DNA from: Ulva prolifera
Taxonomy: Eukaryota > Chlorophyta > Ulvophyceae > Ulvales > Ulvaceae
NCBI GenBank assembly: GCA_023078555.1
Contig: CM041204.1
Coordinates: forward strand, 4,866,430 to 4,930,429
Reading direction: 5' to 3'
DNA: 64,000 nt
Position 1 is the stretch's first letter; each line of letters starts with the position of its first letter. This document shows positions 16,362-51,529 of the stretch, piece by piece. The notes beneath the pieces are model-generated. The model did not search any database and was not told the origin of the DNA. It saw only the letters and a list, made by a program, of their open reading frames with translations. The position numbers and the translations under genes are program-made.

Positions 16362-19300
16362 CTATTCCACGGCGATCGCATCTGCTTTGAGTCCGCAAGT
16401 GCTCGCTGTGTCAAACTTTCCAGAAGCCTCCGTCAAAACTCTCGAGATTGCTTTGGCATTCATGCAGCTCCCTTTTACAATTGCCTCGGACACAGCCTGC
16501 ATGGCGTAAGTTTCACCTTGCTCAGCATAGGTCTGGGAGGGTGCTGCTGGATTGCTGAAATAAGGGTGGCCACATCAGGCATCGGTGTCAGACAATCTTC
16601 CTGCTTGAGTGAGCTAAATATATGTATCGATACCTTCGTATCAATCACTCAGCAGTACGGATCTGAACAAAGTGTCGCCTCACCGCTGATCTGGGTCTGG
16701 CATTTTCACCACAGTGCCGATGCTCTTTGCATCATTCGGGACTGCGGATTGCAACACAGGTCAGACACGGCGATCAATAATCAACGGCTCCCCGTGACAA
16801 GAGACCCAGTCCGACCTGGAGCACAGAGCAAGCAGTGCTGGAGCAGCGCACCCGTGCAAACACTTTGCCGTAGACCTTGGAGGAACACTTGTCATATGCG
16901 CTCGCCCTCACCCGGCCCTTGCCTGCAAACAGAACTATCAGCTGCACTCAAGTACTTGCTTCTCGATTTGAAATCGGGAGGAATGCTGCCTCGTGCAAGC
17001 ACAGAGCTGTCCACGCCTCCCTGCCCTGCCACTCGCAATGTCCACAGCGCTCACACAGGCTCAACAATTAACACCCACAGCCAAGGCAACGCACTTTGAC
17101 ATATGAATTGCCTGCAAAGTGTATCATATGATAATACGATCGAAAACTGCTGATACCCAGGACCCATTATTGCCACTGTGTGCTCGGGGCAGTCAAGGCG
17201 CATTTCACATTTGGCAGATCGCGTCACCGATCGCCCGTTACCAACAAAGCCAAACCACGTTCACATGGCCACACAGCCGCAAAGGCAGTGGCGCAAGCAC
17301 ACCACCTCACCAGCCAATGCAGCACCCACAGCGACGATCCTGCACCTGCTGGGCACATCCCCCAAACCCACGATCGTCCACTGCCCGGCATCTCCGCAGA
17401 GCTGTACGATCAAGCAAGGCAACGCATCAACAGCACACAGCACCCGTCTGCAAACACATGATACAGCCAGCGCAAGCACGCCACCCCCGCGGAGGCTCCG
17501 AGGACGTGGCACGTGAACGCACCCTCGATGCAGGCGGTGGCGGTGGCGGTGGAGGCGGCCTCCGCGATGAGCTTGATGTACACTGACTCGCTCGAGATGG
17601 ACTCCGAGACAGCCTCGGTCATGCAGCCGCAGGCGTTGACGGCCGCGGCCACGGCCTCGGCGTGCGCGTCGGCCGTCGCGTGGGCGTATGCCTTGGCTGA
17701 AGCCGTCACCGTGGCGCACTCGTACGCGTCCTCATCGTCCGACTTGCACGTGATGATCGCCTTGCTGATCGTCTGCATGCATGAGCAGCCTGGCTGAGCG
17801 CACGCTGCTGCGTTGTGTGAGGGGGCATGCCGAAAGAGGACAGGCATTCGCGGCAGCACGCAGAGGGACGGACAGAACACAGCCACAAAGACAACCGAAC
17901 AACTTATGCTTGTCTGACTTGCCGCGCACGGGCCTGGGCGCAGAGGGGGGAGCAGCTGGAGGCAGGCAGCAGCAGGCAGCGCGCTGATGAGCCAGGCTGA
18001 GCCCAGTGTGAGCTGCGGGCATGCCCAGCTAGCGGCGACAAGTTGCAGCAGCAGCAGTGGCCACAAGCCTGAAGCAGATTCCGAGCTGCACGCTCCTGTT
18101 GGAAGATGATGGCAACACAAGGAGCGCAACAGCAGCGCCGCATTGTCATCCTTCCGCACGCTTGCGATATGCATGTTGTGCAGTGTAAACCCTCCCGCAC
18201 ACAAGCCGCTGGGCTGAGAGCAGGGCTGCGAGATCGGTCTGTGGGCTGATGCAGGGGCCGATCTCAGGGAAGTACGAGCATGGAATCAGCAGGCGGCGGG
18301 GAAGGGCGGCTGACCTGGGAGAAAACGAAGGCGTCGGCGGCCATGAAGACCTCCTGGAAGACCTCCATGTCGATCTCTGAGCCCTCCAGGCACGCTGTGG
18401 CAAACACCTCCTCGACTGCACATAGCACAGCACATGTAAGGCCCTACACGCCTGGGTCCTGAGAACGGATAACATCTGACAGTGTGCGCTTCATGTGCAT
18501 CTGGTGCAACACAGAGGTTGGCTTCCAGAGTCCCTGGGTGCTACCTCTTCATACTGTGTGCAGTGAGATATCCTACTCCTCCGGGCTCACAGCTGCTGCC
18601 CAGTGAGCAGCGACTCAGCACCCCAGTCAGCATCACCATGTGGCAAGGAGGCACCTCCAGCCACATCAAGCAGATGTTGTACCTCAACAAGGAGCCTTGT
18701 GGAGGTGGAGGAGGAATCTGGATCTAGCAGCTGCTGCCTGCTACTTGCCCACTGGCATTGTAAGAGGTGTGCAGATGCCACACAGTCATCTCGATCAGGG
18801 TCTGCCCCACTCCAACACAGTGGTCAAGGGGTCTGGGAGCTGCAGCCAGCACACAGGAATACAAAACACTACACACGCTGCCTGCGGACTCTGATCTCAC
18901 CAGAGCCAGACCTTTATCCTGGGCTGACCAGCTAGCAGGGGGGTGGCAGGGGCGCACTGGCTGAGACGTGTGCCGTGGCACTCTTTGAGCGGATGACCTC
19001 CTTCTCCACCACATGCTTTGCGCACAGGGACTCCGACTTGATCTCCTCATCAGACTTCTTTGACTTGCCTCCGGACTTTGCAGGGGGTGACCCTGAGCCG
19101 GAGCCCTTCTTCTCGGAACCCTCGCCCTCGGAGCCCTTCTTCTTACTGGAGCCTGACTTCTTGGAGCCTGCCTTCTTGGGGCTGCGCCCACGCCGGCTGC
19201 CGCGGGAGGATTGGTGGTGAATGCGGCCCTCCGACTTGCGCTTCCCACGCGCAGCGCCGCGCGAACGCCCCGCTGGGGACGGATTGGCGCTACGGCTGCG

Positions 19301-19459
19301 CAGCTGCCGCGTCAGCAGCCCCCTCGTGGGGCCTCCGCTGAGCGGCTTCTCGAGGTCGGCGGCGGTGGCCGCCTGTTGCAGTGCCGGCGCCGCGCCGAGG
19401 GCGTGCACTGCGGGCGCGGCCAGCAGCAGCAGGGTGCAGAGGAGCGATGACGACGACAT
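16362..19459 (-). CDS. Secreted ten-cysteine protein, paralogue A (Lys/Ser-rich N-terminal region)
   Basis: Not recognised as a named family. Five exons: 19459-18958, 18415-18315, 17772-17523, 16922-16852, 16496-16362 (352 residues). Exon phases 1-0-1-0, exon 2 of 101 nt and exon 4 of 71 nt are identical to paralogues B, C and D. Residues 1-20 are a clean signal peptide (MSSSSLLCTLLLLAAPAVHA). Residues about 40-140 are basic and Ser/Gly-rich (KKAGSKKSGSSKKKGSEGEG). The conserved part starts near the Cys of SLCAKHVVEKEV. Exon 2 gives VFATACLEGSEIDMEVFQEV; exon 3 has CKSDDEDAYEC, an Ala-rich stretch, NACGCM and STATATACIEG; exon 4 gives KVYGKVFAR; exon 5 has SCMNAKAISRVLTEAS and ASTCGLKADA. This is the most divergent member. 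The last two exons are short and were found only by matching the other genes. The protein is probably exported; its role is unknown. Confidence 0.8.
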
Positions 19460-19848
19460 GTTGCGACGCTGAGTTGGTTCTGCATGCTTTCAGTGCGTTA
19501 GGAACGCTGGGTCATCAGCGTCAAAGACACTCCACAACAGCACAGCTCTCATCCACAACAGCACAGCTGAGCTGATCTTATGCATTCAACTTTCAAATTC
19601 CCCACCAGTGCCAGAAGAGCAGGCTGCTATGGGATAGACCAGCTGCGAATGACTGTGCAGAGTGCACCAGCTGTGGCTCCCACTCCCAGGCTGGTCTGAG
19701 CAGGTGTCACACTGTGAAATCAGCCATACATCTGCTGAGAACCCAGTGGCAGGTGTTGCTTGTGCCGTGGCAGCTGCTGGTCATGCAGTAAAGATGACTA
19801 CACTGCAGTGATGATGCTGAAGTTGATGATGCCGAGGCTGCTGCAGCT

Positions 19849-19893
19849 GGGCCATGCAGCAGGGCCATGCAGCAGGGCCATGCAGCAGGGCCA
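19849..19893. repeat. 13-bp tandem repeat
   Basis: Unit GGGCCATGCAGCA repeated a little over three times. Confidence 0.8.
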
Positions 19894-20403
19894 CGATGTA
19901 AGCCGCCGTTGCAGTCAGCAGGGGAGGTGCAAGGGTGGCGATAGGCGTCACTCGCGATCAGGCTGAAGAAATGACGTAATGTTTGACTGGCCTGCGTTCA
20001 GGCGCAAAGACGAGCTGGACGCGCAGCATGGCCTGCAACTGAGATGTGCATGACATTTCAGAAGTGCTGATATGATGGCGAGGACTGTGTGTAACTGCGT
20101 TGGCCATAGGCGGCCATGCATGCAGCCTTGGGGCACGGCAGGCCAACTCGGAGTGACGTGCCAGTGCTTGCAGTGCGTGCGGCCGTGCTGCGCTCCGGCT
20201 TCCGAACGTGCACGCAATTGGAAGCACCCGAGATTAACTGACCACGGTGGATGGTTAGTCATGCATATCGACGGCGCGGCGATCGACCCTGCGATGATCA
20301 ACATATATGTCCCGCTGGACGTCATCGGTGCACGCTGTACTCACGTATCGATCCTTCGCTGCCACTCATCCACGACAGCTAGGAGACGGCACTGGCCCGC
20401 ACA

Positions 20404-20433
20404 CGCCTTGCTTGCTTTGTCCTTGTAACACAC
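20404..20433 (+). repeat. R1 3'-tail fragment
   Basis: CTTGCTTGCTTTGTCCTTG then TAACACACG: the terminal 30 nt of the R1 family only. Confidence 0.6.
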
Positions 20434-20859
20434 GTTAGCTTGTGACGCGGGGCAGATGGGGACGTGAATGCACTACCTGCGGGGAGTGAACACAGGAGAT
20501 AGCCACGCGTTCGCGCAAGCCCGCATGCACGACGCTTGCACATTGCAATATTGAGCGATCGGATGCTGGCGACTGGGCTTGCACGCTTGGCAAGGCAAGC
20601 TGATGCACAGCAGTTTGCATCCACGTGCGCGAGGACCAAAATTCGAGCGTCTCGAACCTTGCTAGCCAGCGGAGCGCTCGAGCAGCTCGAGCGCACCACT
20701 GAACATGGAACTAACCTGCATGGCGCCAGGTCCCAAAACGCATTCGGCAGTCATATGCATGAAGTTATCTCCTCAATCTCACGTGCGCCAACTCTTCCAC
20801 TGAACGGTAGCCATCAACGCACAAAGCCTTCAAGGCGACTGGTACACAGATGAAGCTGT

Positions 20860-21003
20860 GGCCGGCTGTGGCCGGCGCGGGTGCTGGCGGTGCGTGGGTG
20901 TGTTGGTGTATACAATTGGTGTGTGCGCGTGTGGTTTGTTGCGCAGTGTGCGGTTCCCCTGGTTGCTGCTCTCGGTGCTACTTGCCTTGTCCTTGTAACA
21001 CAG
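20860..21003 (+). repeat. R1 GT-rich repeat copy
   Basis: GT-rich body (GGTGCGTGGGTGTGTTGGTG) followed by the family's 3' block GGTGCTACTTGCCTTGTCC and tail TTGTAACACA. Orientation plus. Confidence 0.75.
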
Positions 21004-24000
21004 ATGAAGCTCGAACGCCATTACGGATTCAAAAACGAGCAGGCAGCACGGTATGCGACTGGTGCACATGCAAAACAGCCTCACCCAGAGTTCGCGTCAA
21101 CACCGACGCGACGATTTATAGTGGCATCCGTGTCGGTCTACAGTTCTAAGTGACGTCGCAGTGATATGATTGCCACGAGCTGTCACGACATCCAAGACGC
21201 GGCCGAAGCAGCGCCGTGGATCCAATCGATTGGACATGACCGCAGCATGGATACAGAGCACACGCGCGCGAACATACGGGCAGGTCGTTGACGCGATGCC
21301 GTTGAGATGGGAAAACAAAGCGCTGGCAGCCCGGCGACAAGGATGCTGTAGTGTATCATGGCCCTCGCTGCAACACCCGTACGCATGCAATTTGGGCAAG
21401 GCCATCGCGCCTGTCCGTCATGCCGCGTATCCAGCAGGCAGTGGGAAGGGCAAAATGCTACTCTGTCAAGCCCTTGCCAACGTCAATCACACACAACACC
21501 GCGCTGCTTGGCCACAAACTACTTACCCATAAGCTATGAAAAATTGAAGGCTCCAGCGGGGTTGTGTGTGGGCGGTCGATGAGTTCTGGAGGGAACCGCA
21601 CCAGCCGTGCTCGCCTTCAGGTCGCGACGTTCAAGGCGCCCGGTTGCAGGTGATGGGTCAGGAGAATTCCTGTAGAGAGCCTGTAAATGCTGATTGTCAG
21701 CTACTGTGTGTGTCACCAGGGAATGTAGAGCTGTTGTTTACGCAGTCGATGTGGACCAGGTCAATCGAAGTATGCAAGTATGATGTATGCTTTTCAGCCG
21801 GCAGGTAGCATGAGTATCACGCGAGCGGCATATACAAGACAGTTCATATGCGAAATGACGGAATATGCATCTATATATAGGCCGTGGCGGGCAGCTCGTG
21901 AGCATGCAGGATCATACTCACAATTTGAACGGGGGAGAAAAAACACCGTGCTGACTCGTCCGTGCGCCGATGCCATTGCATTCACAGAGCTTCTCCTTAT
22001 CTACCATTTCCCTATGCTGATCCCGCATGGCAGGCGCTTCCAGCGCTGCCACATCGCAGTAGCTGCGTCCCTCCGAAACCCGGTATGTCGATCATGGCAA
22101 AACTACATGACTTATTTTGGTTCGGGACGAGTCCGTACCCCACACGGCAACGCATCCACGGTTTTGTGATGAAGACTGTCACTGCCAGCTTGTTCTGGCC
22201 AGCCTGGCTCGTGCGGCCGTGCTTGTGTGTGTTGCAGTCGCTCGCTGCGTTGCGTCTGTGCACACATAACTTAAGCATGCACCTGTTTCCAGCAAGGCTT
22301 GCGGCAGCGAAGGATAAGTTCCATGACAGAGACGTTTGCCGCTGTCTGCGCTGTGAGTTGCAGCTGCAACGATCTGCGATCAGGCGCCGCTTCGTTTGGT
22401 GCAGGCCTAAGCTTGCTGAGCAACAGTGGAAGCACTAGTCAACGTGAAGCACAGTCCTTGTGCCTGGGTCATTGAAACATAGCAAACGCAGCTCTCATCG
22501 GACACTGTGAGTATGACATTTCACCCGTTCGTTTTGCTCGCAGCGTATCTGTTTCGAGCTCAGGCAGATGCAGCAGCTTCACTACAATGCGGCCTGCGAG
22601 CGGCAGGCGCAAGGTTGCAGCTCTTGAATTACCCCATCCTATGACCACGTCCTTCGGGACACGCATCCCCCAACATGACTATTTTGATGGCGTGCGTTTT
22701 GGCATCATGAGCGTGCGTGCCCGAAGGCGTTCTGCAAGGGCATGCACGCCGCAGCAACGTATACTCGGCGTTACTATTCTCGCAAGGCTCCGCAAGCACT
22801 TGGCACGATACGGCAACAGTCGCAGACTTTGGCGATCTCCACTGCATCAGTGTTGTGTCATTTAGCCATGTCCCTGCATGGCCTTGCAAGGGTGGGCCCG
22901 TTGCAATTGTACGCGCCGTTCATTTTCGGCACAGAGCTGTTTGCAGCAGTTACATAAGCATACATATATGTGTACATCGAATGTGTTGTCGTGGTGTGCT
23001 ATCTTGTGGTTGCTTGCACTTCAGACTGCACTGCAACCCGGTCACCAGCATGCGCATACGCGTCTATGAACCTGTACTTCGCCAATGCCGATGGACGCCA
23101 CTCAATCAAATAGATAGTCACGTACGTGCATGTAGCCGGTCACGGGGACACAACGCCCTGCAAGGCTGCACCAGCAGAGTCGAGCTCTCGTTGTGTGACC
23201 TAGCCTAGCGGTCGCTGTGCTGGGCAGATCCGTGCAGAGGGCCGTAAAAATGATGTGATTCTGCGGGAGTCTCACAGGAAGTGCCACGGCAGGCGCCAGG
23301 GCAGGCGTGCTTAGTGACCACGGCAGTGGTGTGCTGGCTGCAATTCTCTGCGCAACACACTGCCCACAGCTGTTCACCACCGTTCCAAGTGATCCTATCC
23401 ATAGCCAAGGTAGCTATGCATCAATAACGCGCAGCCCCGCAAGCAGGCGCCATCTATAGCTGTTGCTAGCACTGTTGCTGGTGCTTCGTCTGCTGTTGCT
23501 GCAATGGTGTGTGGGCCAACACAGCCCTTGCAACGTGATTTGAAAGGCTGCTCTTCTTGCGCATTTAAGGTACAGAGACCGGAGCATGCTCACCGTGGCA
23601 TGCATGTGGACCTGATTTTCTTCCATCATCTGTGGCTGCTCCATGCTGCCTTGCTGCTCTAGGGCATAGAGCACTCCCAGGCAGTTGGCATGAATATCAC
23701 ATAATCGGTGTCATCAGCACCTGTTGGAGAGCCTCCAGATTGCGTGCTCAGGAAAGATACAACAGGAACACAGCCGCGTCCACTGCCCACTGACCAGTGC
23801 CTGTTGCAGTTTTCACCACTCAAGCACTGTAGAGGCCACGTCCCAGGTCACAGGATGCCTCGCAGTGTGCACTTGCAATACTGAACTGTGAAAGGTAGAA
23901 GGCAGGGATGTCATGCCACCACCGCCACTCCACACAGAACAGAACTCAGGCGCCGCTGTCCACACGCACCACCCGCGCCTGCCAGCACCAACACACGTAC

Positions 24001-25403: not shown

Positions 25404-25475
25404 CACGGAATCCGGGAATCGAACCCGACTCTCCTCCTTGGAAGGGAGAAATCATAACCACTAGACCAATTCCGC
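25404..25475 (-). tRNA. tRNA-Gly(UCC)
   Basis: Read on the minus strand, 72 nt. The acceptor stem GCGGAAT pairs with ATTCCGT. The D region TTGGTCTAGTGGTTATGAT matches the Pol III A box; the anticodon stem TCTCC/GGAGG encloses the loop CTTCCAA with anticodon TCC; the T arm is GTCGGGTTCGATTCCCGGA, the B box. A TTTT run follows just downstream at about 25386-25389, fitting Pol III termination. No intron. CCA is not encoded, as is usual in eukaryotes. Confidence 0.95.
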
Positions 25476-27487
25476 ACTTTGACGAATGTGTTTTCGTCGT
25501 CACTTGCTAGAATTGTATTCATTGCGCGTTTCGCTCAAGAGCACTAGACACAGTCCAACAAGTGGCCCGCTCGACGTTGCTTGGACCGACAATAGCATCT
25601 ATACCACAGATATGGCCCCAGTAGATACGTTGTGAGATGTCGGACAATATCAGGCATAACACAACTGTTCTCGCCGATGGAAACTGCATCCTGCAGGTGT
25701 ATACACCGCCAACTTTGGGGGGGAGTTCCGTATACTGGAACTGATCATGGCCGGCCATCATGGCCAGCAACAGCTGTGGACTAGTCAGCCATCATAGTTC
25801 AGACTGCCTGCCACGTAGGTTCCGGTATGGGTAGGTCTCGCTTCCATCAGCTGGGGAGGCACACACGTGTACCCAAGCCTAGGCCTTCCTTCATGAGGCA
25901 GCAGCCGAAACCACCACACGCCAGCATCGCCCTGTAGCCAGCAAGCCCACCTTTCGGCATGGATGTACTAAGTGAAAAATCCAAGGTCTAATTTAGGCCA
26001 AAGCAAATTGAGTCAGGACTTCATGAACTTCAGGCTCACACTCTGTGCGATGACAGCACATCGTGACTGCGGCTGGATGATCAGGCCAGCCGCTGCATCG
26101 ACGGGTCCCTACATCACCCTTTGCTCTCAACCACATGCTGTTCAGCTCTGGGACGCCGCCAATTCTCAGTGCCTTTGTGTGTTGCTACAGTCAGCCAATA
26201 AGCTGCGGGCATCGTGCAGCACGTGTCCTCACAAGGGCATCAGCCTCAGTGCCCCGCGAGGTGACAGGTCATGCCCGCTTTCACCATTCAACATTGACCG
26301 TCCAGCCGCTGTAGCGTCCTGCGTGCAGCTGCACACAGTGCCAAGCGTAGGCCGCGCCCCCGCGCAGGCGCCGGCGCTCAGCGCCCGCAATGCCGCCATC
26401 AACCCCTCACGTGTGCAAGCGCGCGCAGCACAGGCAGCCCGGGCCACTGCGGCGCCTGGCCTGATGTGAGCTTGCCACATGCGCCTATGTGAATTTGAGC
26501 AGGGGCATGTGACCGCAGGGGACAGCAGCCTGGTCGAGGGACAGCAGCGCGCGGCCAGTGACAGCTGCAGGCTCACTGGCGTTGTCCATTTCGGAGCGCT
26601 GCATCCCTGCCGGCCGCAGGCACAGTCCAGCAGTCTACGGTGTTTGCACCTTCCGCAGAAGCGTGGTGGCGCGCAATGAGCAGCAGGTGATGCTGCAGTC
26701 GGTGGGCGCTGCAGCTGGGCACGCGCTTCAGGTGGGTGTGTGACACAAGGACAAAGACAATGAGGCAAGTAGCACCACGGAGCAGCGCACGAGCAGGTTG
26801 AGAGATCCAGCATGCCACACCCAAATCACAGCCAGCAGCCCGCATTCAGGTGGGTGGGGCTGGACAGGGCTGCCTGGCCCTTGGAGAGGGCGTGGCTGTG
26901 TCTTCAAGCACAGCCGGAGTGTTGGTGCAGGCCTGCGTCGGCCTCCCCATTGCATCGCTCACGCCAGTAACATCTTGAAAATACATGCAATAGCGGTGAG
27001 AGCATGTCTCTCCTGAGTCGAGGGGAGCATGAGGCATGCGGCGTGAACATGAGTACGGCATACTCATCAGGCACACATCGTATTGAGTAAGTCTTCAGTT
27101 GGTCATGTCTCTCATCCACTAATTGCGCTGATGACTGGTCCCCCAAAAAACACAAGCCATACGAATACAGCTCATGAGTGCGAACACTTCAAGGCGTGTG
27201 CATGTTCACACCAGCAGTGCCCCGCAAATGCAGGGGCAGCTTCATAGGGCCCAGAGCAGTACACTCATACGAGACCACATCCCTGTCGCAGGGCTGCCAC
27301 CGTCACGGACACAGCAGCACTACCACATCGTGGCTGCCACCAATGGCCCCAAAACCTGTCAGAAAATCATACTTCTGTATCATCCTCCCTAACCTATTCG
27401 TCGGAGAAGGCGCTTCCCCGCCCCACTGCCTTGCTTCCAGCCTGCGCCCCCAGCCCACAGTCGCACATACATACATACATACTCCGG
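25476..27487. other. Gene-poor region between tRNA-Gly and a LINE copy
   Basis: No confident gene. A GC-rich stretch at 26.3-26.5 kb is open on both strands (plus-strand end VQARAAQAARATAAPGLM) but has no clear partner exons. An R1 fragment lies at about 26738-26800. The end is a (CATA)n run at 27466-27482. Confidence 0.4.
26738..26800 (-). repeat. R1 repeat fragment
   Basis: Contains ACACAAGGACAAAGACAATG and GAGGCAAGTAGCACCACGG, the reverse of the R1 3' block with several substitutions. Confidence 0.6.
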
Positions 27488-27985
27488 GGACATCATGTTT
27501 ATGCCGCCGGGTGACGCTTTGTGCATAGGAGATGTGTCGGTTGTGAAACCCTGTGCTGATTCCTATTGCGGCCGTGCGGCCCGGGAGGATGGGGGTGCTG
27601 CGGAGACGCGGGACGTGCAGAAACGCACTGCTTATCGTTTGTACGACCCTGATGCGTATAGTTTTGTGCCGTTATCGCATGAGACGCATGGTCGCTTGGG
27701 ACGGCCTGCCATGAAAAACTCGAATCGGCTGGCGGAGGTTGCGTCTCGGTGTGGTAAGGTGAACCGTGCTTTGTTTGTGACGAATGCTCTGCGCCGGTTG
27801 AGTGTGGCGTTGTGCAAGGGGAATGCTCTTGTGCTCCGTGCGGATCTTCAATCTTTGGCTGGCATCACCGGCCGGGCTGTGGTACGTGCTCGTACCCGGC
27901 CTAGTGCCATGACTGCGTGAGTGGATTTGCGTGTGTATTCCTGGCAGCGGCTCGCTGCCCGGCCTCTGTCCTTTGTAACTACATA
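27488..27985 (+). mobile_element. 5'-truncated non-LTR retrotransposon copy a (C-terminal ORF2 end)
   Basis: An open frame at 27495-27920 encodes the region that follows the reverse transcriptase in green-algal LINE-like elements: GDVSVVKPCADSYCGRAA, RDVQKRTAYRLYDPDAYSF, VPLSHETHGRLGRPAM, then ALRRLSVALCKGNALVLRA. After the stop comes the 3' end CGGCCTCTGTCCTTTGTAAC TACATACA. It is nearly identical to copy c at 42990-43525 on the other strand, so one of these insertions is recent. The reverse transcriptase domain itself is absent. A (CATA)n microsatellite abuts the 5' junction in both copies. Family assignment as LINE is from memory of similar algal proteins. Confidence 0.7.
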
Positions 27986-28297
27986 CAAGCACCACACATG
28001 TCCTGAACCGGGGTTGCCATGGCCTCGAGGCACCCCCTGTTGCAAACACCACATCATCAGCTGCATTCAGCCTACACACCGCCGCCGTGTCGCCCCCTCC
28101 AACATGCCGACCCTTCTCAAGTCGCCTCGGCCGTGCCCCCCCTACCCTTGACATTTCACAAGTTACCCAATATATACACAGGTCTAAATATTGGTACTGA
28201 CACAAGTATACCGCTACACACTGTTCCAACGCGCTGAATTGCCCTACGACATTGCGCAAAACATGAGTCCTTCTGTGCGGGCGTCGCCGGTGGGTGG

Positions 28298-30820
28298 CTA
28301 GGAGTCGGGGGGGACAGGGACGCCGTCAACAGTGACGACCGCGAGGCCACCGCAGGTGCTTCCGGCGGTGATGTTCACTGCATTTGCCTCAACGAGCAGC
28401 CCCGCAGAGGCCTCCGCGTCGAGGCACTCCCCCTCGATGATCGCTTCCGCGGCTGCCTGCACTGGCGCCCCGCCTGAGTGGAAGCCATGTGATATCAAGT
28501 GTTAGCGCCCTGGTCGTGATGCGCCCCGGCACACATTGCCCCAGCTCAGAGGATTGCTTGTGTTGCAGCTGAAGATTGGTAGGCAGTGCAAGTTGAGTGA
28601 GCAAATTATGGGAACAGAAGTGCAGTATTGCGAGCCGCAAACACTGGCTGCGGCCTGGCCACACATCAAATTCAGTAGGATGCCAATGAACAATTTGCCC
28701 TTGTTTATGGGCCCTGCGCTCAGTCGCCCAAGTTTTACAACACCAGGGCAGGACGAGGTGGCACTTGATGTACATAACAAGTCTCTGTTTGGCCAGCGCA
28801 GTAGGCGCACCCGAGCAAAGACGCGGGCAAAGACGCTAGTTGAGCACGTCTCGTACACTTCGTCAACCACCCTCCCCCTGCCTGCATGCACACACCTCCC
28901 GTCGGACACCTTCCGCGTCCCTAGCACACACCGTCGCGTGAAATTTCGGCAGGGTGTTTCCCACATGTGATCAGCCCGACATGAGAACTGGTCAGACAAA
29001 GCGCCCTAACTTTGCAAATGTACCCAGGTCGGGGTTTTGATCAAACCACGGTGGAGATGCAACTACAACTGCCAGCCATCTTGAAGCTGCCCAGCCATGC
29101 CGTAAACACACAGCAAGTATGCAGCTGTCGTGCACCGGTCATTGAAGCAGCCATCACACCACAATCCTGCAGCTCTGGCACGTGCATGCTTGCCCCCATT
29201 TCACGCGGCCCCCAGCCCCTGCCTCGGGGCCGCTGGCAGCCTGCAAAGACGAGCGCGCACCGGAGATGCACGCAGAAGCGGTGGCTGTAGCAGTCGCCTC
29301 AGCCACAAGCGAGATGAACGCCTCCGCCGTGATGAACGACGAGATGCTGCTGCCCATGCATGCGCAGCCGTCCAGCGCCGTGGCCATGGCGGAAACGTGC
29401 GCGGCGACCGTCGTGTTGGCAAAGGCCTCGGAGGACACGGAGATGGAGGCACAGAGGAACGCGTCTTCATCATCCGACGTGCACTCCACCATTGCTGTCG
29501 CGGTCGCCTGCACGCACGGAATCCCGTGTCTTGGGCACTGGGGACCGCGGGTGGCTCATGGCTCCAATAAGCAAGACGCACACGCACTGTGGACCACGAG
29601 TATGTAGACTCGGGCTCTGCCGGGGAGGCAGCACACACCATGCAGCTCGTCTCAGTGGAGTGCGGGGGCTCCGCACAGTGTCCAGCGCGGTGAGCATTGC
29701 AATCTGGAGGGGGGGCGGGGCGGCACCTGGGCAAAGGCGACAGCGTCCTTCGCCATGAAGATCTCCTCTAGGTCCTCCAGCACCAGGTCTGCCTTGCCAT
29801 CGCACACCATCTTGAACACCTCCGCCACTGCAAAATTGCATGCCAGTCTCACATGCATGGGTGTGCATGAGTGAAGTTCACCTGGCGTGCCACCGTGTCC
29901 GATAAGCGGTACGTCTGATAAGCGATGCCCACCCGTCTGGGAGAGGGGGGGGGGGGGATTCCGCGCAGCCTGCCTGCGGATAGAATGCCCAAACAGACGC
30001 GACCCTGCCTAGGTGCCACAGCAAGCTCCCCCACGGTCAGCTGTCCCATGTGTGGCAGCTCTGCCGTTGCGCAAGCCGACACCGCATGTGGGCCGCCAAA
30101 TGCACACGCAGAACAACGCACCACACGGCCCCGGCCACACGTGCCAGCACGGCTGCACTCACCACCATGACATACGTGAGTCTGCACATTGTAGATGTGA
30201 ACGCACGGGTTTCATGCATGCACGCACGCATGCATACGGGGCACTGCCGCGGGGCCCGCACCGGCGTCGGCGTGCACGCTGCCGCAGCTGAAGTTCTCGA
30301 CCTCCTCCGTCGTCGCCTCGACCGTGCACACCGCCTCGATCTCCTCCTCGTACGTCAGCGGCTCATACTCATAGTCCCAGTTCTCGCCGGGGCTGTCCGG
30401 CTCGGCGGGGGGCCGGCCCTCGACGTCCGCGCGAGACGCTGCAGGCTCCTGCTTCGGGTCTGCGGCGCTGGTGGAAGGCGCCGCGGGAGCGCCAGGCACC
30501 TCGTAGTCCCAGGGGTTGGACCGGCCTCTGTTTGCTGAAGGGTACTTGACGCCGAGGTCGGTGTAGTAGAAGGTGTTGTAGTCGTCATTGTCATCGTAGT
30601 CGATGCCGGTGAGTGCTCGCGCGTGGCCGTCGACATCGGCGGCGCCGACGCCGTGGCTGTAGCGCTGGGGCTGCGGGGAGCCGGCGTGGTTTGTGGCTGT
30701 TGCGATGGCTGCTGCATTGGCCGGCAGCAGGGCCGCTGCAATGATGGCCGCGCATCGCCATGCATTGCGACTTGCGTCTGTGGCGGTGGCTAAGGGTGGC
30801 GGCATGACCTGCATGTGCAA
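28298..30820 (-). CDS. Secreted ten-cysteine protein, paralogue B (Asp/Glu/Tyr-rich N-terminal region)
   Basis: Five exons: 30820-30262, 29827-29727, 29507-29261, 28881-28811, 28456-28298 (378 residues), phases 1-0-1-0. The N-terminus has a hydrophobic signal (AWRCAAIIAAALLPANAAA) after a short Thr/Ala leader; starts at 30820 or 30805 are possible. The variable region is acidic with Tyr (TGIDYDDNDDYNTFYYTDLG; ENWDYEYEPLTYEEEIEAVC). The conserved part follows: SCGSVHADAG at the exon 1 end, VFKMVCDGKADLVLEDLEEI, CTSDDEDAFLC, DGCACM, LVAEATATATASACIS, then EVYETCSTSVFARVFAR and GECLDAEASAGLLVEANAVN with STCGGL. It ends VPVPPDS. Exons 2, 3 and 5 are close to paralogue C, indicating recent duplication or gene conversion. 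No enzyme motif is visible. Export is likely; function unknown. Confidence 0.82.
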
Positions 30821-36577: not shown

Positions 36578-37314
<737 letters not shown>

Positions 37315-37673: not shown

Positions 37674-38013
<340 letters not shown>

Positions 38014-38888: not shown

Positions 38889-41852
38889 CTAGGTGTCGAT
38901 GGGCACAGGCACACCGTCGACGGTCACAGCGGCCATGCCCCCGCAGGTGCTGCTGGCGGTGACGTTCATCGCATTGGCCTCAGCCAGCAGCTCCAGGGAG
39001 GCTTCAGAGTCCAGGCACTCCCCCTCCAAGATCGCCCTGGCGGCTGCCTGCACATACGCAGGGGGCTCTATGGGTATAGAAATACAGCTGCGTGCACATG
39101 CGCCGTGGCCTGGCGTGCGTGCGCATGCGCACTGCATGCATCTAGAATGCCACCTCCCATGGCCAATTGTTGTTAACAGGAAGACACTGACCAACCACAC
39201 AGTGGCAGTGCCTGTGTGCTGCTGCATATACATCGACTCGATCATTCCCAGTGGGTACTGCATTTTGCAGCGCCGCTTCAAGCAAGGTACCGAGCGTAGG
39301 TACCGAGCGTAGGTACCGGGCGCCTGTATTCCTGCCCAGATTCACTAGTAGGTCCTGCCACAAAGAGAGCATGTATTGACAGGGCTTCGAGTTGAGTGCA
39401 GAATGAAGCCACAACCCCTTAAAACTCCCCGACAAATCTGGCATTCCACAGCACCTAAATATGCCAGAGGACGGAAATTGAGATGGTGACCGTGGCATGA
39501 CGCATGCAGACAGCACGGCATGGCCGCCTGCTGCACAGGGTGGCACGTGGGCCAGCGCAGCAGGCGGCCGCTGCTGCAGGTCTGGAGGCGCACCCGGGCA
39601 AAGACTCGCGCAAAGACGGTGGTCGTGCACGACTCGTACACCTCCTGCACCACCCTCCCCCTGCCTGCACACCACCCGCTTCCCGTCACACTCTTAGCCG
39701 GCCCGACCGTGCATGGCATCATTTCTGGGGTAGCAATCCATAAAAAAAAAGGAGTATAAACAAACAATCGCAGCACCCAGGAGTGCAGCGAAAGCTGTCA
39801 CAGTTCGAACAACCACCTAGCACACGTGGGATGCCTAGTGCCACAGAAATACGTACGTCGGCGGCAGTGCAGATGCGGGCTCCGGCCAATTCCTCCGGTA
39901 GCAAGCCTTGAACTGAAAATGGGCTGCTGGCAGGACGGTGCTGCATGCATATGGCGCGTGCCGCGCTGCATGCTTCGCTCGCGCACACCATCACGGTCAC
40001 GATGCAGGCCAGGCACCGCCTTATGCGTGTAACATTCCGAGCACTGCAGAAGAGGCGATACGCAGGGCGTACCGGAGATGCACGCAGAGGCGGTGGCCGT
40101 GGCGGTCGCCTCAGCCACAAGCGAGACAAACGCCTCCGCGGTGATGAAAGAAGACAAGCTGTCGCCCATGCATGCGCAGCCGTCCAGCGCCGTGGCCGTC
40201 GCGCTGACGTGCGCGGCGACCGTCGTGTTGGCAAAGGCCTCGGATGAGATGGAGATGGAGGCGCAGAGGAACGCGTCCTCGTCGTCCGACATGCATTCGA
40301 CCAGCGCCGTCGCTGTCGCCTACACACCGACACCACACTTGTGGCGCAAGGACGCCAGGCGTCTGTACAGGCGGCGAGGCAGGTAGCACCGCGCGGGAAC
40401 AGCGAGCAGTTCAGGAACAGGTCCACGGCCGCAGCACACACAGCGCTTGTGTCTTGTGCAGAAACCACCAACCAGAGATCTCTCTACTACCACTACCAGC
40501 AGCCGAGACATGGACTTCATCATGAGCGTGCGCCTGCCTCGGCGCGAGGGTCCCCGGCCAGGGAGCAGACTGGGGGAACGGGTTGCTAGCTGGAGTGGCG
40601 TGAAGGATAGCATTAATGCAGCGGCGGGAGTTGAGGGTGCGGCTACTTGCGGCCGGGCGGACGGGGCCGGGGCGGCACCTGGGCAAAGGCGACAGCGTCC
40701 TCGGCCATGAAGATCTCCTCTATATCCTCCAGCACCATGTCTCCCTTGCCATCGCACGCCATCTTGAACACATCCGCCACTGCAGCGCCACGAGCCAGTC
40801 TGACAGCGCATGCATTTGTACACCATTGTGTGCAGGTACTTTGATGCAGCTGCAGGGACAAACTCGGAAACTCCCGAGTATCCGAGTCACTTTACAGGCA
40901 GGCAGGCGGCACCGTGGGCATCGCGGGCATCGCGCCTAACAGCAACAATTCCAAGCGCACCCACACCGCGCCAGCGCAGAGGCAACTGCAGCTCCCATGC
41001 ATGTACACGGGTCGCATCGCCCACAGAGGTACACCATGCTGGGGCCTAGCATCCCAGATTGATGTGTTCAAGGCTGCAGTGCTCACAGTTGTACAACAGT
41101 TTCAGAACCGCTCCATGGGAGGCCCACCCCTGTCTGACACAGACATCGCATGCCCAGCCGTCACGCCGGGCGTAGTTTCCAGAGCCCCACGGCCGACACG
41201 GTGGGAGCACCCGGCCGGCTGCCGTGGATGGCGTAGTGGCGGCACACACGGCTGCAGGCGGTGCCGGCGCGCCGGCCCGGGTGTGCGCAGGTCGCGCCAA
41301 TCGGTCCCCTCTAGATCTGGCGTGTCCATCGATGTGGGTCCGAGGGAGGGGGGAGGGCGCACCGGCGTCGGCGTGCACGCTCCCACAGTCTGAATTCTCG
41401 ACCTCTTCAGCTGTGGCTACTGTCGTGCACTCCGCCACCAGTTCATAGTCATCATCAGGGAGTGGCGCCGGTTCAAAGTCATCATCAGGGAGCGGCGCCG
41501 GTTCAAAGTCATCATCAGGGAGTGGCGCCGGTTCATAGTCATCATCAGGGAGTGGCGCCGGCGGGCTGTTGGGCGGTTCATCATCGCCATAGCAGTAAAC
41601 CGCCCCCAGAGGACTCAGGACGCATGCCAGGGTGCGCTGTGGGCCGGTGAGGCCCCCCAGGGTGTGCGGCCCGGAGGGCGAGGCGCTCTGCAGCTGCGAG
41701 GCCCCGGCTGCTGTGGGCAGCACTGCGGCCGCTGTCAGCACGGCAGCTGCAAACCGCCATGCGTCGTGGCTGTGACTGGCAGTGGTGTTTGCATGCGACA
41801 GCATGTTCATGTTGGAGATGGTGGAGATGGTCGCAGAAGCCGAGGCCTGCAT
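38889..41852 (-). CDS. Secreted ten-cysteine protein, paralogue C (Asp-rich decapeptide repeats)
   Basis: Five exons: 41852-41363, 40779-40679, 40319-40073, 39664-39594, 39047-38889 (355 residues), phases 1-0-1-0. A signal-like stretch (AWRFAAAVLTAAAVLPTAAG) follows a polar leader of about 30 residues; a downstream Met may be the true start. The variable region carries about four 10-residue repeats PAPLPDDDYE or PAPLPDDDFE. Then come ECTTVATAEEVENSDCGSVH, VFKMACDGKGDMVLEDIEEI, CMSDDEDAFLC, DGCACM, LVAEATATATASACIS, EVYESCTTTVFARVFAR, GECLDSEASLELLAEANAMN, STCGGM, and the end VPVPIDT. An R1 fragment lies in intron 2. Very similar to paralogue B in exons 2, 3 and 5 while exon 1 is unrelated apart from its ends. 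Confidence 0.83.
40372..40435 (-). repeat. R1 fragment in paralogue C intron 2
   Basis: GGCGAGGCAGGTAGCACCGC followed by AGCGAGCAGTTCAGGAACAG, the reverse of the R1 3' block. Confidence 0.7.
41441..41571 (-). repeat. 30-bp coding minisatellite in paralogue C exon 1
   Basis: Unit of 30 bp (AGTGGCGCCGGTTCAAAGTC plus ATCATCAGGG on the plus strand) repeated about four times with few changes. It keeps frame and encodes PAPLPDDD(Y/F)E. Confidence 0.95.
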
Positions 41853-42989: not shown

Positions 42990-43525
42990 TATGTATGTAG
43001 TTACAAAGGACAGAGGCCGGGAAGCGAGCCGTTGCCAGGAATACACACGCAAATCCACTCACGCAGTCATGGCACTAGGCCGGGCACGAGCACGTACCAC
43101 AGCTCGGCCGGTGATGCCAGCCAAAGATTGAAGCCCCGCACGGAGCACAAGAGCATTCCCCTTGCACAACGCCACACTCAACCGGCGCAGAGCATTCGTC
43201 ACAAACAAAGCACGGTTCACCTTGCCACACCGAGACGCAACCTCCGCCAGCCGATTCAAGTGATTCATGGCAGGCCGTCCCAATCGACCATGCGTCTCAT
43301 GCGACAACGGCACAAAACTATACGCATCAGGGTCGTACAAACGATAAGCAGTGCGTTTCTGCACGTCCCGCGTCTCCGCAGCACCCCCGTCCTCGCGGGC
43401 CGCACGGCCGCAATAGGAACCTGCACAGGGGTTCACAACCGACACATCTCCTATGCACAAAGGGTCACCCGGCGGCATAAACATGATGTCCCCCAGTTTC
43501 TCGTATGTATGTATGTATGCATGAT
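42990..43525 (-). mobile_element. LINE copy c, 5'-truncated
   Basis: Minus-strand frame from about 43515 to 43059 encodes the same post-reverse-transcriptase region as copy a (GDVSVVNPCAGSYCGRAA; DVQKRTAYRLYDPDAYSF; ALRRLSVALCKGNALVLRA). The 3' end is CCTCTGTCCTTTGTAACTAC followed by ATACAT. Differences from copy a are few. Its 5' border is a (CATA)n run at 43503-43525, beyond which lies the X-family ORF on the same strand. Confidence 0.75.
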
Positions 43526-46605: not shown

Positions 46606-46651
46606 GTGTGGATGCCACACATGCGTGGCCACACATGTGTGGCATCCACAC
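46606..46651. repeat. Perfect 18-bp inverted repeat (hairpin)
   Basis: Arms GTGTGGATGCCACACATG and CATGTGTGGCATCCACAC are exact reverse complements around a 10-nt loop CGTGGCCACA. Each arm is itself partly palindromic (TGTGG...CCACA). Confidence 0.95.
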
Positions 46652-47204
46652 ATGAGATCGGGTCCCATGCGACCCAATCTCGCGCCGTTGGTTTTCAATG
46701 CTATTGTGGCGTGAAGTCCAGGTCCGACACATGTGTGCAATTCATCACGTGGTCGAGATCACGTGGCTGCATGTATGAACGTGCCAAAGTCGCAGCGCGA
46801 GCCGACGGCATTGGGAGGGGCCGGAGCAATGCCCAAGGGATACCTGATGCACAACATGACATCAACATCGGTCATGCGCAGCGCGGGGGAGAGCGGCAGG
46901 GTGCTCAACTATATGGTGGCCGCGCGGCAAGCACAGCTGCGCTGCCGTGCCAAGTTGCATTCACTCTTGCGTGTGGTGACATCATGGCTGTCACGCAGAG
47001 CACCCCCGGCGGCGCCGGGCAGCCACCTTGGTGACACGCTGTTGCACAGCAGGCAACACCTTGGCGATGGTGTCGCTGCTCGCAGGCCCTGGCAGCTCCG
47101 GGCAGAGCTGCTCAGCGAGGTTGAGCACCTGCCAGGCTTCCTGCAATTGTTGCCCGTGCGGCCCACTGCGCAGCTGCATGCGCTCGGGGCCTCCTGCGGA
47201 ATGT

Positions 47205-47615
47205 ATGAAGTTACAAAGGACAGAGGCCGGGCATGCATGGAGCTGTTTCTCGGAAACCACTCGCAAATCCACTCACTCATTCATGGCACTAAGCCGGGCA
47301 CGAGCGCGTACCACAGCCCTGCCGGTGATTCCAGCCAAAGGTTGAAGCCCCGCACGGAGCACATCCGAGTCCCTTTGCACAACGCCACACTCAACCGGCG
47401 CAAAGAAGTCGTCACAAACACACCATGGTCCACCACACCACACCACACCACACCAAGACGCAACCTCCGCCAGTCGATTCAAGTGATCCATAGCAGGCTG
47501 TCCCAACCGACCATGCATATGCGTCTCATGCGACAACGGCACAAAACTATATGCATCAGGGTCGTATGCACGATAAGCAATGCGTTTCTGCACGTCCCGC
47601 ACCACCGTAGCAGAC
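47205..47615 (-). mobile_element. LINE copy e, 5'-truncated and degraded
   Basis: Reverse of the LINE 3' part from GAAGTTACAAAGGACAGAGG to the segment GTTTCTGCACGTCCCGCACC. A tandem expansion CACCACACCACACCACACCA interrupts the frame near 47435-47455. Confidence 0.7.
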
Positions 47616-48095
47616 CCGCCCTCCTGCGTTGCCCAGCTAGGGGGTTGCCCAGCTTGCAGCAAGACTCTTGCTGGAGCAGCTGCCGTTCTGGGCCTCTGTG
47701 AGTGTGATGCAGGGCTGGAGGTGTTGGCTGTTGCCGGCCAGGGTGGTTCGCGAGAGGCGCTTGCATGCGCATGGCGAGTGGGCGCGCAGCCCACCACCGA
47801 GCCGAGGCTGCGGAGCCATGCATGGTGCGACTGCAAACTCACAGACAACAGCATGTTGCTATAGCAACAGCTATAGCTGTTTTGCGGGGGTTCGGGGTGG
47901 GGGCGGTGCTTAAGTTGCTGAGGCTCCCAAAATGCCTTGCTGCAGCTGGGGAAACGCCTCACATGACTGCTGCCATACAACAGCCGTTGCCTAGGACTGG
48001 GTAGTTGACAACACATGTGTATGTTCCCACATTCATTGTGTATCTGACAGTAATGTGCAGTGGCTCTCACTGAAAGTGTCACTAACTGAGAGTGT
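47616..48095. other. Intergenic stretch
   Basis: No gene recognised. Ends with the left target duplication of an R1 insertion (48081-48095). Confidence 0.4.
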
Positions 48096-48268
48096 TACAA
48101 GGACGAGGGTGGCGAGGCAGGTAGCACCGCAAAAGCAGCAAGCGGTTCAAGAACACACCCAGCAACCCAGCCCACCGCACCCACGCCACTCCTCCCGTCA
48201 CACCCACGCAACGCACACGCAGTACCCACAACGCCCCCAACAAACGACACAGACTCCCAGACCGCCAT
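48096..48268 (-). mobile_element. R1 element with target-site duplication
   Basis: This copy has clear borders. A 15-bp direct repeat ACTAACTGARAGTGT flanks it (48081-48095 and 48269-48283, one mismatch). The element is about 173 bp. Read on the minus strand it starts ATGGCGGTCTGGGAGTC, has a GT-rich body, then GCTTGCTGCTTTTGCGGTGC, CTACCTGCCTCG and the tail GTCCTTGTA. Long target duplications like this are typical of target-primed retroposition. No Pol III boxes were seen. Confidence 0.82.
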
Positions 48269-48283
48269 ACTAACTGAAAGTGT

Positions 48284-48975
48284 CACTATAGTGCCACTAT
48301 AGTGGCCCTAGCGAGAGGGACATTTATTCACACTTCGTTCAATACTGTGCCGCAGTTCCTGACCCTGATCATCCCCGGTCCGCTGAATTCCGGGTGTGCG
48401 GGTCTGTTGAAAACGAAACTGAAACATTTCACCATGTTATTCGGATATCTCGTCTGGGTTAGCGTACATTCCGATGACCCCTCCAGCCCTGTCTCGGCCT
48501 TCACAGGCTGAACTTCATACTGCCATCTTCTACCTCCCAAGAGCAGCACCTCCGTAACTCGACTACCTTAGCATTCCAGCCGCTGTTGCTCATCCCGCCT
48601 TCCTGTAATTTCTACATCGCGACCCAATGCGGCTGTGCCCGTACGTTGCGGTGCATCTGCAAGGCGCAGTGCGCATGCTGCCGGGTCACAAACTGCCGAC
48701 GAGCACCTCCCTGCGGCACATTCTACTGTGCAGCACTCGCAAAAGAAGCCGACATCACTGCCACATACACCCTGCTGGTCCTGCTGCAACTCGAAGCTCT
48801 TCACCAGCTGCCCTGCCCGTTCAACGCCACCTGCCCGCGACCGCATGCGCCCACGTACGCGTCAGGTGCTGCCCGCAGAAGCAGCATGCAGCTACCACGG
48901 CTGTGCCGTAGCCGTGCATGAATGCCGCAGCCACGGGGCGACCACGTCAAGGTAGCGTGTCAGCCACAGCCGCAG
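48284..48975. other. Intergenic region downstream of paralogue D
   Basis: No gene recognised. Minus-strand transcripts of paralogue D should end here. Confidence 0.4.
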
Positions 48976-51529
48976 CTAGTAGCTATAGTATCCGTACGGG
49001 AGGTCATCATAGGAAGCGTCGTATACGTAGGGCCCCGCATAGCTGGCTGTGGAGTATCCATACGCGGCATCACCGTAGTAGTCGCCGTAGGGTCCCGTGT
49101 AGGTGGACGTGGAGGGGGTGACGTTGACCTCGGCCAGGCCGCCGCAGGTGCTGCCGGCCGTGACGTCCATCGCGTCCGCCTCCAGCAGCAGCTGCGCCAC
49201 AGCCTGGCCGGTGAGGCAGTTGCCCTCGATGATCGCCTGTGCCGCCGCCTGCGCGTGCATGCCGGCTGGGTTGCGATGCGCTGATACGCGGGAGGCCACA
49301 GGATCTGGTGGAGCGGCACAGCTCGCGGCGGAGGGCGGCCGGCCGCATGCACTAATGATGACCAAAACTCCAGTTTGAAGAGCATGTGCCACGTTGGGCC
49401 TGAGATATCTGGATCATGTGCAAGGTCCCGGGCGGACGTAGCACTGGTACACGTGTACAACAAAGACCTAGGTGGGGGGCTGTGTGGAGGGGACAGGAGA
49501 GTTGAGGGAGTGTGCATGCGGCGGGGGCGTACCCGGGCAAAGACTCTGGCAAAGACGTAGGAGGTGCAGGTGGAGTAGGCTGCGCGCACCACCCGCCCCG
49601 TGCCTGCAACAGGCGCCCGCTCGTTAGCAGGCCACCATTCTGTGAGTGTGACAAGGACAAAGCTAGCGAGTCAGGTAGCACCGCAGGCCACAAACAGGGG
49701 CACCTCACATCCACGCAACCACCAACACGCCACACAGAACAACACACCCATCCAATCGCACACGTCAGCATCTGCCCAGGCCGCAGCCATACACACACAG
49801 GCCCCCATGCCCCATACCCACAATCACACCCGCACACCCACCCCCACTCGCACCCCGTCCCACAGCCCGGCCGGCTCCCGAGCCCCAAGGCACACGCACC
49901 ACAGGCTGCATAGCCAAACACACAGAGACACCCACACCAAGCGCGGGAAGGCCCCAGCCTCCCCAGCAAAACTCTGTGTGTGGGTGCACACGCGTGTTGG
50001 GAGCACATGGCGTCCGCGTGGACCCGCGTGCACACCCCATCATGACGCACGCCCCCCTTGTGCCTTTGTCTCCAGAGCTTGGCCCTAGCCTTCCATGCTC
50101 ACACAAATGAGGATCTGCGCTATCAAAGTCCAAACGACAGGCTACGTTCGCAGCACCCCAATAGGATTGCGGGCAGCCTGAGGGTGTGGGGCGCACCGTA
50201 GATGCATGCAGAGGCGGTCGCGGTAGCAGTCGCCTCTGCCACGAGCGAGATGAAGGTTTCAGAGGAGCCAAAGGCTGTGACTTCGTCCTGGCAGCCGCAG
50301 CCGCGGATGGCAGTCGCGGTGGCCTCGACGTGCGCTGTGACCAACGTCTCGGCGTACGCGTGGGCGGTGGCGGTGATGCTGGCACACAGCATCGCGTCCT
50401 CGTCTGTGGACTGGCACTCCACCACGGCCGCCGCAGTGGCCTGCATGCATGCGCGCCACCATCACCACCGCTGCACTGGCAACCTCATCCAGGAGCCCGC
50501 AAAACAAGGCTGGGTCATTCACCGCTGGCTGGGATGATGCCAAGGCCAGCACTGGCATGGCGTTAAGATTGGGCAACCTTGCTGTTCAATGGGCAGCCCG
50601 ATTCACCTATAATTATAACGGCTGGGTCTCACGCAACACTGCTCAGCAGGTGGCTGCTGGTGTGGTGACAACTTGACACACACTCAAGCTCACAATGACG
50701 TCTGCGTGGTCTGCAACGCATGGTGAAGCTTCAACTGCTGAAGCAGTTGACGTTGAAGGAGGCAGGGCATCGCAGGAGGGCCACACCTGCGCAAAGGCGA
50801 CGCCATCCCGCTCGACCAGCACTTCGGCCAACTGATCCAGCGTCAATGACTCCGGCTCATTGCACATAATGTCAAACAGCTCCGCAACTGCACAGCACCG
50901 CCCCGCTCTCAGCAACTTGCAGGGGTGCTGAAGCTGTGTGACCGTTGCTCAAGAGTCCCTGCCAGCGTTCAAAGGGGTGACATGCACAGCGGTAAGGCCA
51001 AGATGCAACAGGAAGCCACGGCTAGCGCGCTAGGGCTACATGGAGGAGGGGGCGCACTGGCGCTGGCGTGCAGGAAGTCGGCATCATAGATCACCACCTC
51101 CTCTACCGCTGCAGCGACCATGCACTGAGCTTCCCCTGCAGGCGTGGGCGGATACTGATCGCGCATCCTCCCCTTCTTCCCCTCCTTCACCTTCTTACCC
51201 TTTCTGCCCTTCTTCCCCTTCTTCTCCTTCTTCTCCTTCTTCCCTTTCTTCCCGTTCTTCCCCTTCTTGCGCTTCCTCAGGAGATGCCTGCTGGCCGTGT
51301 CTCCGTCTTTGGCAGCGAAACTCCACAGCGGCGTTGTCAACGAAGTGCTGAAGTCAGGGGCACCGGAAGCGGCCAGGTGCTGCGCAGCATGCGTGGCCGT
51401 TGCCACCGCTGTGTGCCGTTCGGACAGGGTGGCGGTCGCTGCGGCGGGCAGCAGCGCAGCGACGGCCATGAGGGCACTGGCGATGCGCCACGCACTGTAT
51501 GTGCGCCTGGCGGAGGTGAGTCGGGGCAT
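48976..51529 (-). CDS. Secreted ten-cysteine protein, paralogue D (poly-Lys N-terminal region, Tyr-rich tail)
   Basis: Five exons: 51529-51058, 50887-50787, 50440-50197, 49603-49533, 49248-48976 (386 residues), phases 1-0-1-0. The signal region is SAWRIASALMAVAALLPAAA after a basic leader. The variable region contains a run built from GKKGKKEKK-type units (about residues 80-110). The conserved part runs AQCMVAAAVEEVVIYDADFL, HASASA, ELFDIMCNEPESLTLDQLAE, CQSTDEDAMLC, RGCGCQ, LVAEATATATASACIY, AYSTCTSYVFARVFAR, GNCLTGQAVAQLLLEADAMD and STCGGL. Unlike the others, the last exon continues about 39 residues into a Tyr/Gly/Asp-rich tail (GPYGDYYGDAAYGYST; YDDLPYGYYSY). An R1 element sits in intron 3. 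Export is likely; function unknown. Confidence 0.82.
49652..49940 (-). repeat. R1 repeat copy in paralogue D intron 3
   Basis: Begins GTGACAAGGACAAAGCTAGC, then GTCAGGTAGCACCGCAGG, followed by a CA-rich body (the reverse of the GT-rich R1 body). The far end is approximate. Confidence 0.72.

Follow-up and report, generated by a model that had tools for sequence, protein, structure and literature searches.

A ten-cysteine domain with interchangeable charged arms in Ulva: four predicted genes, a large genomic family, and a possible role in the extracellular matrix

A 64,000-nucleotide stretch of Ulva prolifera DNA (contig CM041204.1, positions 4,866,430–4,930,429; hereafter the window) carries four minus-strand predicted genes, designated g1–g4 (Table 1). 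Each encodes a putative export signal, a charged arm, and a C-terminal domain with ten invariant cysteines, a domain that recurs widely in the genome. On balance, g1–g4 are probably genes for modular, soluble proteins that an Ulva-like alga secretes into its extracellular matrix, in which a helical ten-cysteine knob would be combined with an interchangeable polyelectrolyte arm. The union of signal, charged arm, and cysteine-rich domain, together with high copy number and sequence constraint, is consistent with secreted matrix proteins.

Rebuilt from the sequence, each of the four genes comprises five exons with phases 1-0-1-0, and all 16 introns are GT-AG. The lengths of exons 1–5 are 502/101/250/71/135 nt in g1, 553/101/247/71/159 nt in g2, 490/101/247/71/159 nt in g3, and 472/101/244/71/273 nt in g4. 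An earlier note on this DNA had described the same exon number and phases and the same lengths for exon 2 (101 nt), exon 3 (244–250 nt), and exon 4 (71 nt), and all four models were recovered in this form. Its start spacing of about 11.4, 11.0, and 9.7 kb also agrees with the measured 11,355, 11,038, and 9,677 bp; its g2 start (position 30820), by contrast, is a TTG codon, and the first in-frame ATG lies at 30814. In blastn comparisons, g2 and g3 match at 92.6% over exon 2 and 86.6% over exon 3, the matches stop within ~25 nt of exon borders, and only the last part of exon 1 matches. The ratio of nonsynonymous to synonymous substitution rates (dN/dS) over exons 2–5 is 0.23 for g2–g3 and 0.36–0.47 for the remaining five pairs among g1–g4. 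Finally, the g1 domain can be aligned through its exon joins with P0002 (UM078_0039), a protein of Ulva mutabilis, with 176 of 207 residues identical (85%), as a comparison of protein sequences only. Because similarity ends near exon borders, dN/dS lies within 0.23–0.47, and P0002 spans the joins, these comparisons show, at the level of sequence, that the models correspond to real genes. An artefact or a set of pseudogenes was rejected in view of the open frames, the GT-AG introns, dN/dS below 0.5, and the alignment of P0002 across the g1 joins.

The proteins have a common anatomy. In g1–g4, the 12-residue hydrophobic peak of the first 70 residues sits within the first 45 (Kyte-Doolittle 2.36–2.52), and after residue 70 the peak does not exceed 2.01; the hydrophobic export signal that had been noted in all four is thus retained as a putative one, based on these peaks. 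The arm that follows is 90–124 residues long and probably disordered. The C-terminal domain spans ~205–215 residues (251 in g4, counting a tail that closes the protein with 14 tyrosines in 49 residues), is ~20% alanine, and is acidic, its net charge lying between −5 and −27 across seven complete domains of the window type. Alignment confirmed the ten cysteine columns, distributed 1/1/5/1/2 over exons 1–5 as the earlier note had them, as invariant in all four proteins, and added an eleventh domain cysteine common to g2 (C177) and g3 (C156). Among 16 relatives, eight of the ten cysteines are invariant (16 of 16), and the final pair occurs in all six rows long enough to contain it; hhalign comparison of the window group with the relatives group gave a probability of 99.6% over 190 columns. 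The ten cysteines presumably form five disulfides.

A census of the domain was made in the genome (88.9 Mb, 44 contigs, the window lying within contig C9) with three single-protein queries, namely g3, a C3 relative, and g1. The results were pooled: 120 matches of one search were combined with seven places found only in the other two, exons within 1.5 kb were merged, and four weaker places (best expectation value, E, 0.0067 or worse) were left out. The domain was found at 97 loci, which fall into 28 groups when single loci are counted as groups; 90 of the loci are at E ≤ 1e-5 and seven above. The largest array comprises 39 loci in 329 kb (C3:1,347,164–1,676,404). With the query reversed as a control, four matches appeared; the best had E 2.1e-4, and each lay antisense to a family member. 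The count may include broken copies, as several matches contain stops. On contig C1, the segment 4008–18274 repeats 1256246–1270512, with three family copies at a fixed offset and with equal match scores; this may reflect a segmental duplication or one segment assembled twice, which would inflate the census. The scale is thus much larger than the four genes of the earlier note. Nor is the exon plan special to those four, for a locus on C9, 1 Mb from the window, also has exons 2–4 of 101/250/71 nt, and exon borders are common to some distant relatives.

A tree of 37 chosen sequences, rooted at the midpoint, places the four genes within this family; P0043, P0047, and P0017 form long branches of unsure placement, and locus L037 was omitted from both the arm and the tree analyses. 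One branch (93/87) holds the window genes, the C9 locus 1 Mb away, and P0001–P0003 on one side. Within it, g2–g4 form a clade (100/98), and g1 clusters with P0002 and P0003 (100/99), which means that g1 cannot be counted as one more local copy. Expansion in tandem, as proposed for the four, thus holds for the local clade g2–g4 and fails for g1; moreover, the four make up a small branch, and larger arrays lie elsewhere. The other large branch (C3 type) has the same ten-cysteine domain, mostly in one open frame.

Intron positions add a history to this tree. In all four window genes, exon 3 is bordered by intron 2 in phase 0 and intron 3 in phase 1, and intron 4 is in phase 0; loci on C2, C5, C6, and C9 have exon 3 borders in common with them. 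By script, exon 3 measures 250–259 nt in 5 of 11 relative loci; it would be 259 nt in two more with the upstream acceptor chosen, and four loci are unresolved. Across 43 relatives, intron 4 was modelled in seven, absent in 27, unresolved in eight, and beyond a missing tail in one; only four of the seven donors are secure because the script chose an early GT for L040, L045, and L066. The intron occurs at the same place and in the same phase in some dispersed members, and the array members examined are without it, except L043 and L066 of C3. We infer from this distribution that the five-exon layout came first and that introns inside the domain were lost from most genes of the array.

The arms carry most of the variation. 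Those of g1 and g4 are rich in lysine and arginine, with net charges of +20 and +19, and those of g2 and g3 are acidic, at −16 and −19. The g1 arm and those of its two orthologue-like proteins, P0002 and P0003, have charges of +20, +21, and +22 at 43–44% arm identity, against 79–85% identity over the domain, so that charge is kept while the arm sequence drifts. In the relatives examined, the arms are largely collagen-like: 42 of 43 open frames have Gly-X-Y triplets in one or more runs of at least four, the commonest triplets being GDE and GNE, and the net charge of these stretches runs from −4 to −77. Both long-armed own-genome relatives that were scanned, of C3 and C1 type, passed the Pfam Collagen model (PF01391), scoring 38.3 and 71.4 bits where the cut-off is 27.2. 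Many C3- and C1-type open frames (e.g., L010 and L034) read CRMYA or CRIYA just ahead of the signal stretch; for CRIYA, the start codon must lie in an upstream exon, so that a small first exon is probable.

Selection was examined in the C3 array with 19 of the 24 C3 loci from one genome search (those aligning gap-free), giving 171 pairs with a median dS of 0.41, a median dN of 0.048, and a median dN/dS of 0.12 (0.01–0.38); some pairs encode near-identical proteins at dS ~0.2. By these estimates, the copies compared are old and under very strong constraint, which suggests an abundant, dosage-sensitive product. Many old and near-identical copies suggest that much product is needed, which suits a structural protein better than one of recognition or defence.

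The fold of the domain is predicted to be all-helical. AlphaFold2 modelled the domain of one relative with seven helices (predicted local distance difference test, pLDDT, 73.9; predicted template modelling score, pTM, 0.75), and its model of P0002 joins an N-terminal part of low confidence to a helical C-terminal part. Structural comparison of the predicted domain with the PDB gave no clear match, and a sequence search of solved structures gave a best E not below 0.15.

In the proposed mechanism, the rigid domain would pack into the wall or self-associate there, and the arm would set the electrostatics. Ulvan is described as the sulfated main polymer of the wall in passages of two papers (PMC8307928; PMC10762512), one of which also calls Ulva wall glycoproteins essentially uncharacterized (PMC8307928). 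The basic arms of g1 and g4 might bind ulvan and polyanionic family members, and the acidic arms of g2, g3, and most relatives examined (Gly-Asp-Glu arms in the latter) might bind divalent cations or basic partners. The eleventh cysteine of g2 and g3 could permit an extra disulfide, and the tyrosine-rich tail of g4 could permit tyrosine cross-linking.

Several points weigh against this matrix role. It is derived from architecture and composition, since no protein of known function is homologous to the domain. The five-disulfide pairing is likewise deduced, and the AlphaFold2 models are of moderate confidence, built on shallow alignments (31 and 32 rows). Nor does conservation of arm charge hold throughout: the arm of the g3-like P0005, a protein that apparently reads into an intron, is charged at just −3. 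The window arms also fall below the Collagen cut-off, g4 alone giving a match, at 12.9 bits (cut-off 27.2, E 0.094), and g1–g3 none, and the shorter triplet arms of the U. mutabilis proteins P0012 and P0014 gave no Collagen match at E ≤ 1.

Some of the same evidence can be read differently. Opposite arm charges on one domain inside one cluster are what a secreted glue of Ulva spores, gametes, or the holdfast might use: oppositely charged arms would coacervate and then be set by disulfides and tyrosine cross-links. The tyrosine-rich tail of g4 (14 of 49 residues), the cysteine-rich domain with its putative export signal, and the very many copies are all in keeping with this, as is a multilayered Ulva adhesive described in part of one paper (PMC11966768). 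No adhesive protein sequence was found for comparison. Seawater salt, moreover, weakens coacervation, and we judge a glue decidedly unlikely.

The fast divergence of the arms would instead fit a role in signalling or recognition, with the family comprising gamete recognition factors or species-specific wall glycoproteins, the sporulation inhibitor SI-1 being an example of the latter. Passages of two papers describe SI-1 as a species-specific secreted glycoprotein (PMC8734247) and as a cell-wall glycoprotein (PMC4306291), and neither gives its sequence. Purifying selection on the domain (dN/dS 0.23–0.47 in the window; median 0.12 in the C3 array) points, however, to dosage rather than diversification, leaving this explanation a small chance. 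A chance of like size is given to osmotic, desiccation-protective, or cation-buffering proteins of the intertidal wall, whose polyanionic arms would hold water and Ca2+ with the domain serving only as an anchor; the net charges of down to −77 in relatives' arms favor it, but half of the window arms (g1 and g4) carry a strong positive charge, and that of g1 remains basic in P0002 and P0003. Secreted cysteine-rich antimicrobial or anti-epiphyte proteins, acting on bacterial membranes through their basic arms, would account for the putative signal, the cysteine-rich domain, the tandem arrays, and the basic arms of g1 and g4, yet they are very improbable given a domain that is large, acidic overall (−5 to −27), and constrained, and given the prevalence of acidic triplet arms among the relatives examined.

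The reading of g1–g4 as modular matrix proteins can be extended to the family as a whole, in a form that is tentative and, taken in full, unlikely to be correct. Under this extension, the Ulva wall or glue would be a home-grown polyelectrolyte system in which one new disulfide-locked helical domain, at ~90 loci, bears interchangeable arms, either polyanionic, proline-poor, and collagen-like, (GDE/GNE)n, or polycationic, and arms of opposite charge join with one another and with sulfated ulvan. If true, a multicellular green lineage would have invented a collagen- or silk-like class of structural protein independently. The ~90 loci make a definite candidate list for the scarcely known protein part of the Ulva wall or glue, and they bear on matrix building in a multicellular green lineage, on algal fouling, and on green tides.

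The family had been called undescribed and without a named domain, and the searches agree. Pfam and NCBIfam scans of g1–g4 gave only matches far below cut-off. Those taken as due to chance or composition were Pfam DUF2264 on g1 (E 0.13, 11.7 bits against 25) and SR-25, the best for the N-terminus and arm of g4 (E 0.0019, 18.3 bits against 40), and, from NCBIfam, WcaL on the g2 and g3 domains (17.9 and 12.3 bits against 537.6), dTDP_gluc_dehyt on the g4 domain (12.2 bits against 365.1), and collagen-like adhesins on the g4 arm (up to 16.6 bits against 325). For the domains of 16 relatives, no Pfam match at cut-off was seen (cut-offs being displayed for part of the matches), the top ones being DUF7224 (E 0.0065) and Fe-ADH_2 (E 0.01), in one sequence each. 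Searches of the open literature, with the U. mutabilis genome paper and its supplement outside their scope, found no description of the family.

All eight organism-labelled homologues (UM006_0055, UM078_0039, UM030_0085, UM036_0037, UM001_0091, UM006_0137, UM293_0001, and UM012_0137) carry the label jgi/Ulvmu1, read as Ulva mutabilis. As far as names go, this speaks for the proposed lineage specificity; metagenomic relatives such as P0025 and P0027 carry no host name, and each protein search scored 8000 candidates, a scope that says nothing on absence from other algae. In the annotation, P0001 (UM006_0055) looks like two adjacent family genes fused, the first without its last exon. P0050 and P0052 appeared in the protein search at E 5.6e-9 and 2.2e-8 and reached 1% and 49% probability in profile comparison; they were not counted as family because shared alanine-rich composition is an equally likely explanation. 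With P0053, these metagenomic, alanine-rich, cysteine-containing proteins may be very distant relatives. A viral origin was rejected after 325 pattern stretches in viral contigs yielded no relative and BFVD gave none among 76 at E ≤ 0.001, as was a bacterial or archaeal origin after 164 pattern stretches in genome contigs yielded none.

Elsewhere in the window, a seryl-tRNA synthetase is the sole recognised gene among 20 open frames scanned. A ~500-bp repeat occurs 3′ of g2 (27465–27987) and between g3 and g4 (42992–43516 and 47202–47624); in the genome it has at least 52 listed matches, with the best 40 of 1154 first-look candidates scored, and it is probably a short mobile element.

Table 1. 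Coordinates of g1–g4, their exons, and other features of the window (position 1 is the first nucleotide of the window).
Feature	Position	Strand	Description	Basis
g1	16362–19459	−	352 aa; basic arm (+20), ten-Cys domain	sequence reading, arm charge
g1 exon 1	18958–19459	−	putative signal, basic arm, domain Cys 1	
g1 exon 2	18315–18415	−	101 nt; Cys 2	
g1 exon 3	17523–17772	−	250 nt; Cys 3–7	
g1 exon 4	16852–16922	−	71 nt; Cys 8	
g1 exon 5	16362–16496	−	Cys 9–10, stop	
g2	28298–30814	−	376 aa; acidic, Tyr-containing arm (−16), eleven-Cys domain	
g2 exon 1	30262–30814	−	ATG at 30814	
g2 exon 2	29727–29827	−	101 nt	
g2 exon 3	29261–29507	−	247 nt	
g2 exon 4	28811–28881	−	71 nt	
g2 exon 5	28298–28456	−		
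g3	38889–41852	−	355 aa; acidic arm (−19) bearing APLPDDD[YF]E four times, eleven-Cys domain	
g3 exon 1	41363–41852	−		
g3 exon 2	40679–40779	−	101 nt	
g3 exon 3	40073–40319	−	247 nt	
g3 exon 4	39594–39664	−	71 nt	
g3 exon 5	38889–39047	−		
g4	48976–51529	−	386 aa; ten-Cys domain between a basic Lys-Gly arm (+19) and a Tyr-rich tail	
g4 exon 1	51058–51529	−		
g4 exon 2	50787–50887	−	101 nt	
g4 exon 3	50197–50440	−	244 nt	
g4 exon 4	49533–49603	−	71 nt	
g4 exon 5	48976–49248	−	includes Tyr-rich tail	
Seryl-tRNA synthetase open frames	13037–14583	+	N-terminal domain (just below cut-off), class II core	family scan
tRNA-Gly (TCC)	25404–25475	−	between g1 and g2	
GT/TG microsatellite	36681–37313		317 units	
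GT/TG microsatellite	37677–37820		72 units	

Among known proteins, two of U. mutabilis whose source labels give no function name are close, compared as proteins only: UM078_0039 has the same domain and the arm charge class of g1, and UM006_0055 has the same domain. The volvocine pherophorins and other hydroxyproline-rich wall glycoproteins are also green-algal, secreted, and multi-copy, and combine a rod or arm with cysteine-containing domains, but the arms here are rich in Asp, Glu, and Gly or in Lys and Arg and are not hydroxyproline rods. None of these families appears among the Pfam matches listed at E ≤ 10 for the four window proteins and 16 relatives. Fibrous proteins with a repetitive arm and a terminal helical domain, spidroins among them, resemble the family in having an export signal, a low-complexity arm, and one non-repetitive helical domain. 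The g4 arm is weakly similar, far below cut-off, to the collagen-like adhesins SclB, SclA, and Lcl, the last of which is described in part of one paper as a bacterial adhesin that recognises sulphated polysaccharides (PMC11162425). To collagen-like proteins (PF01391), the likeness lies in the C3- and C1-type relatives, which score above the cut-off and bear the C-terminal domain; the difference from collagens lies in triplets that are mainly GDE and GNE rather than proline-based and in the C-terminal ten-cysteine domain of predicted helical fold. In kind, g1–g4 and their relatives would be modular secreted proteins of wall type, with the ten-cysteine domain as the new element.

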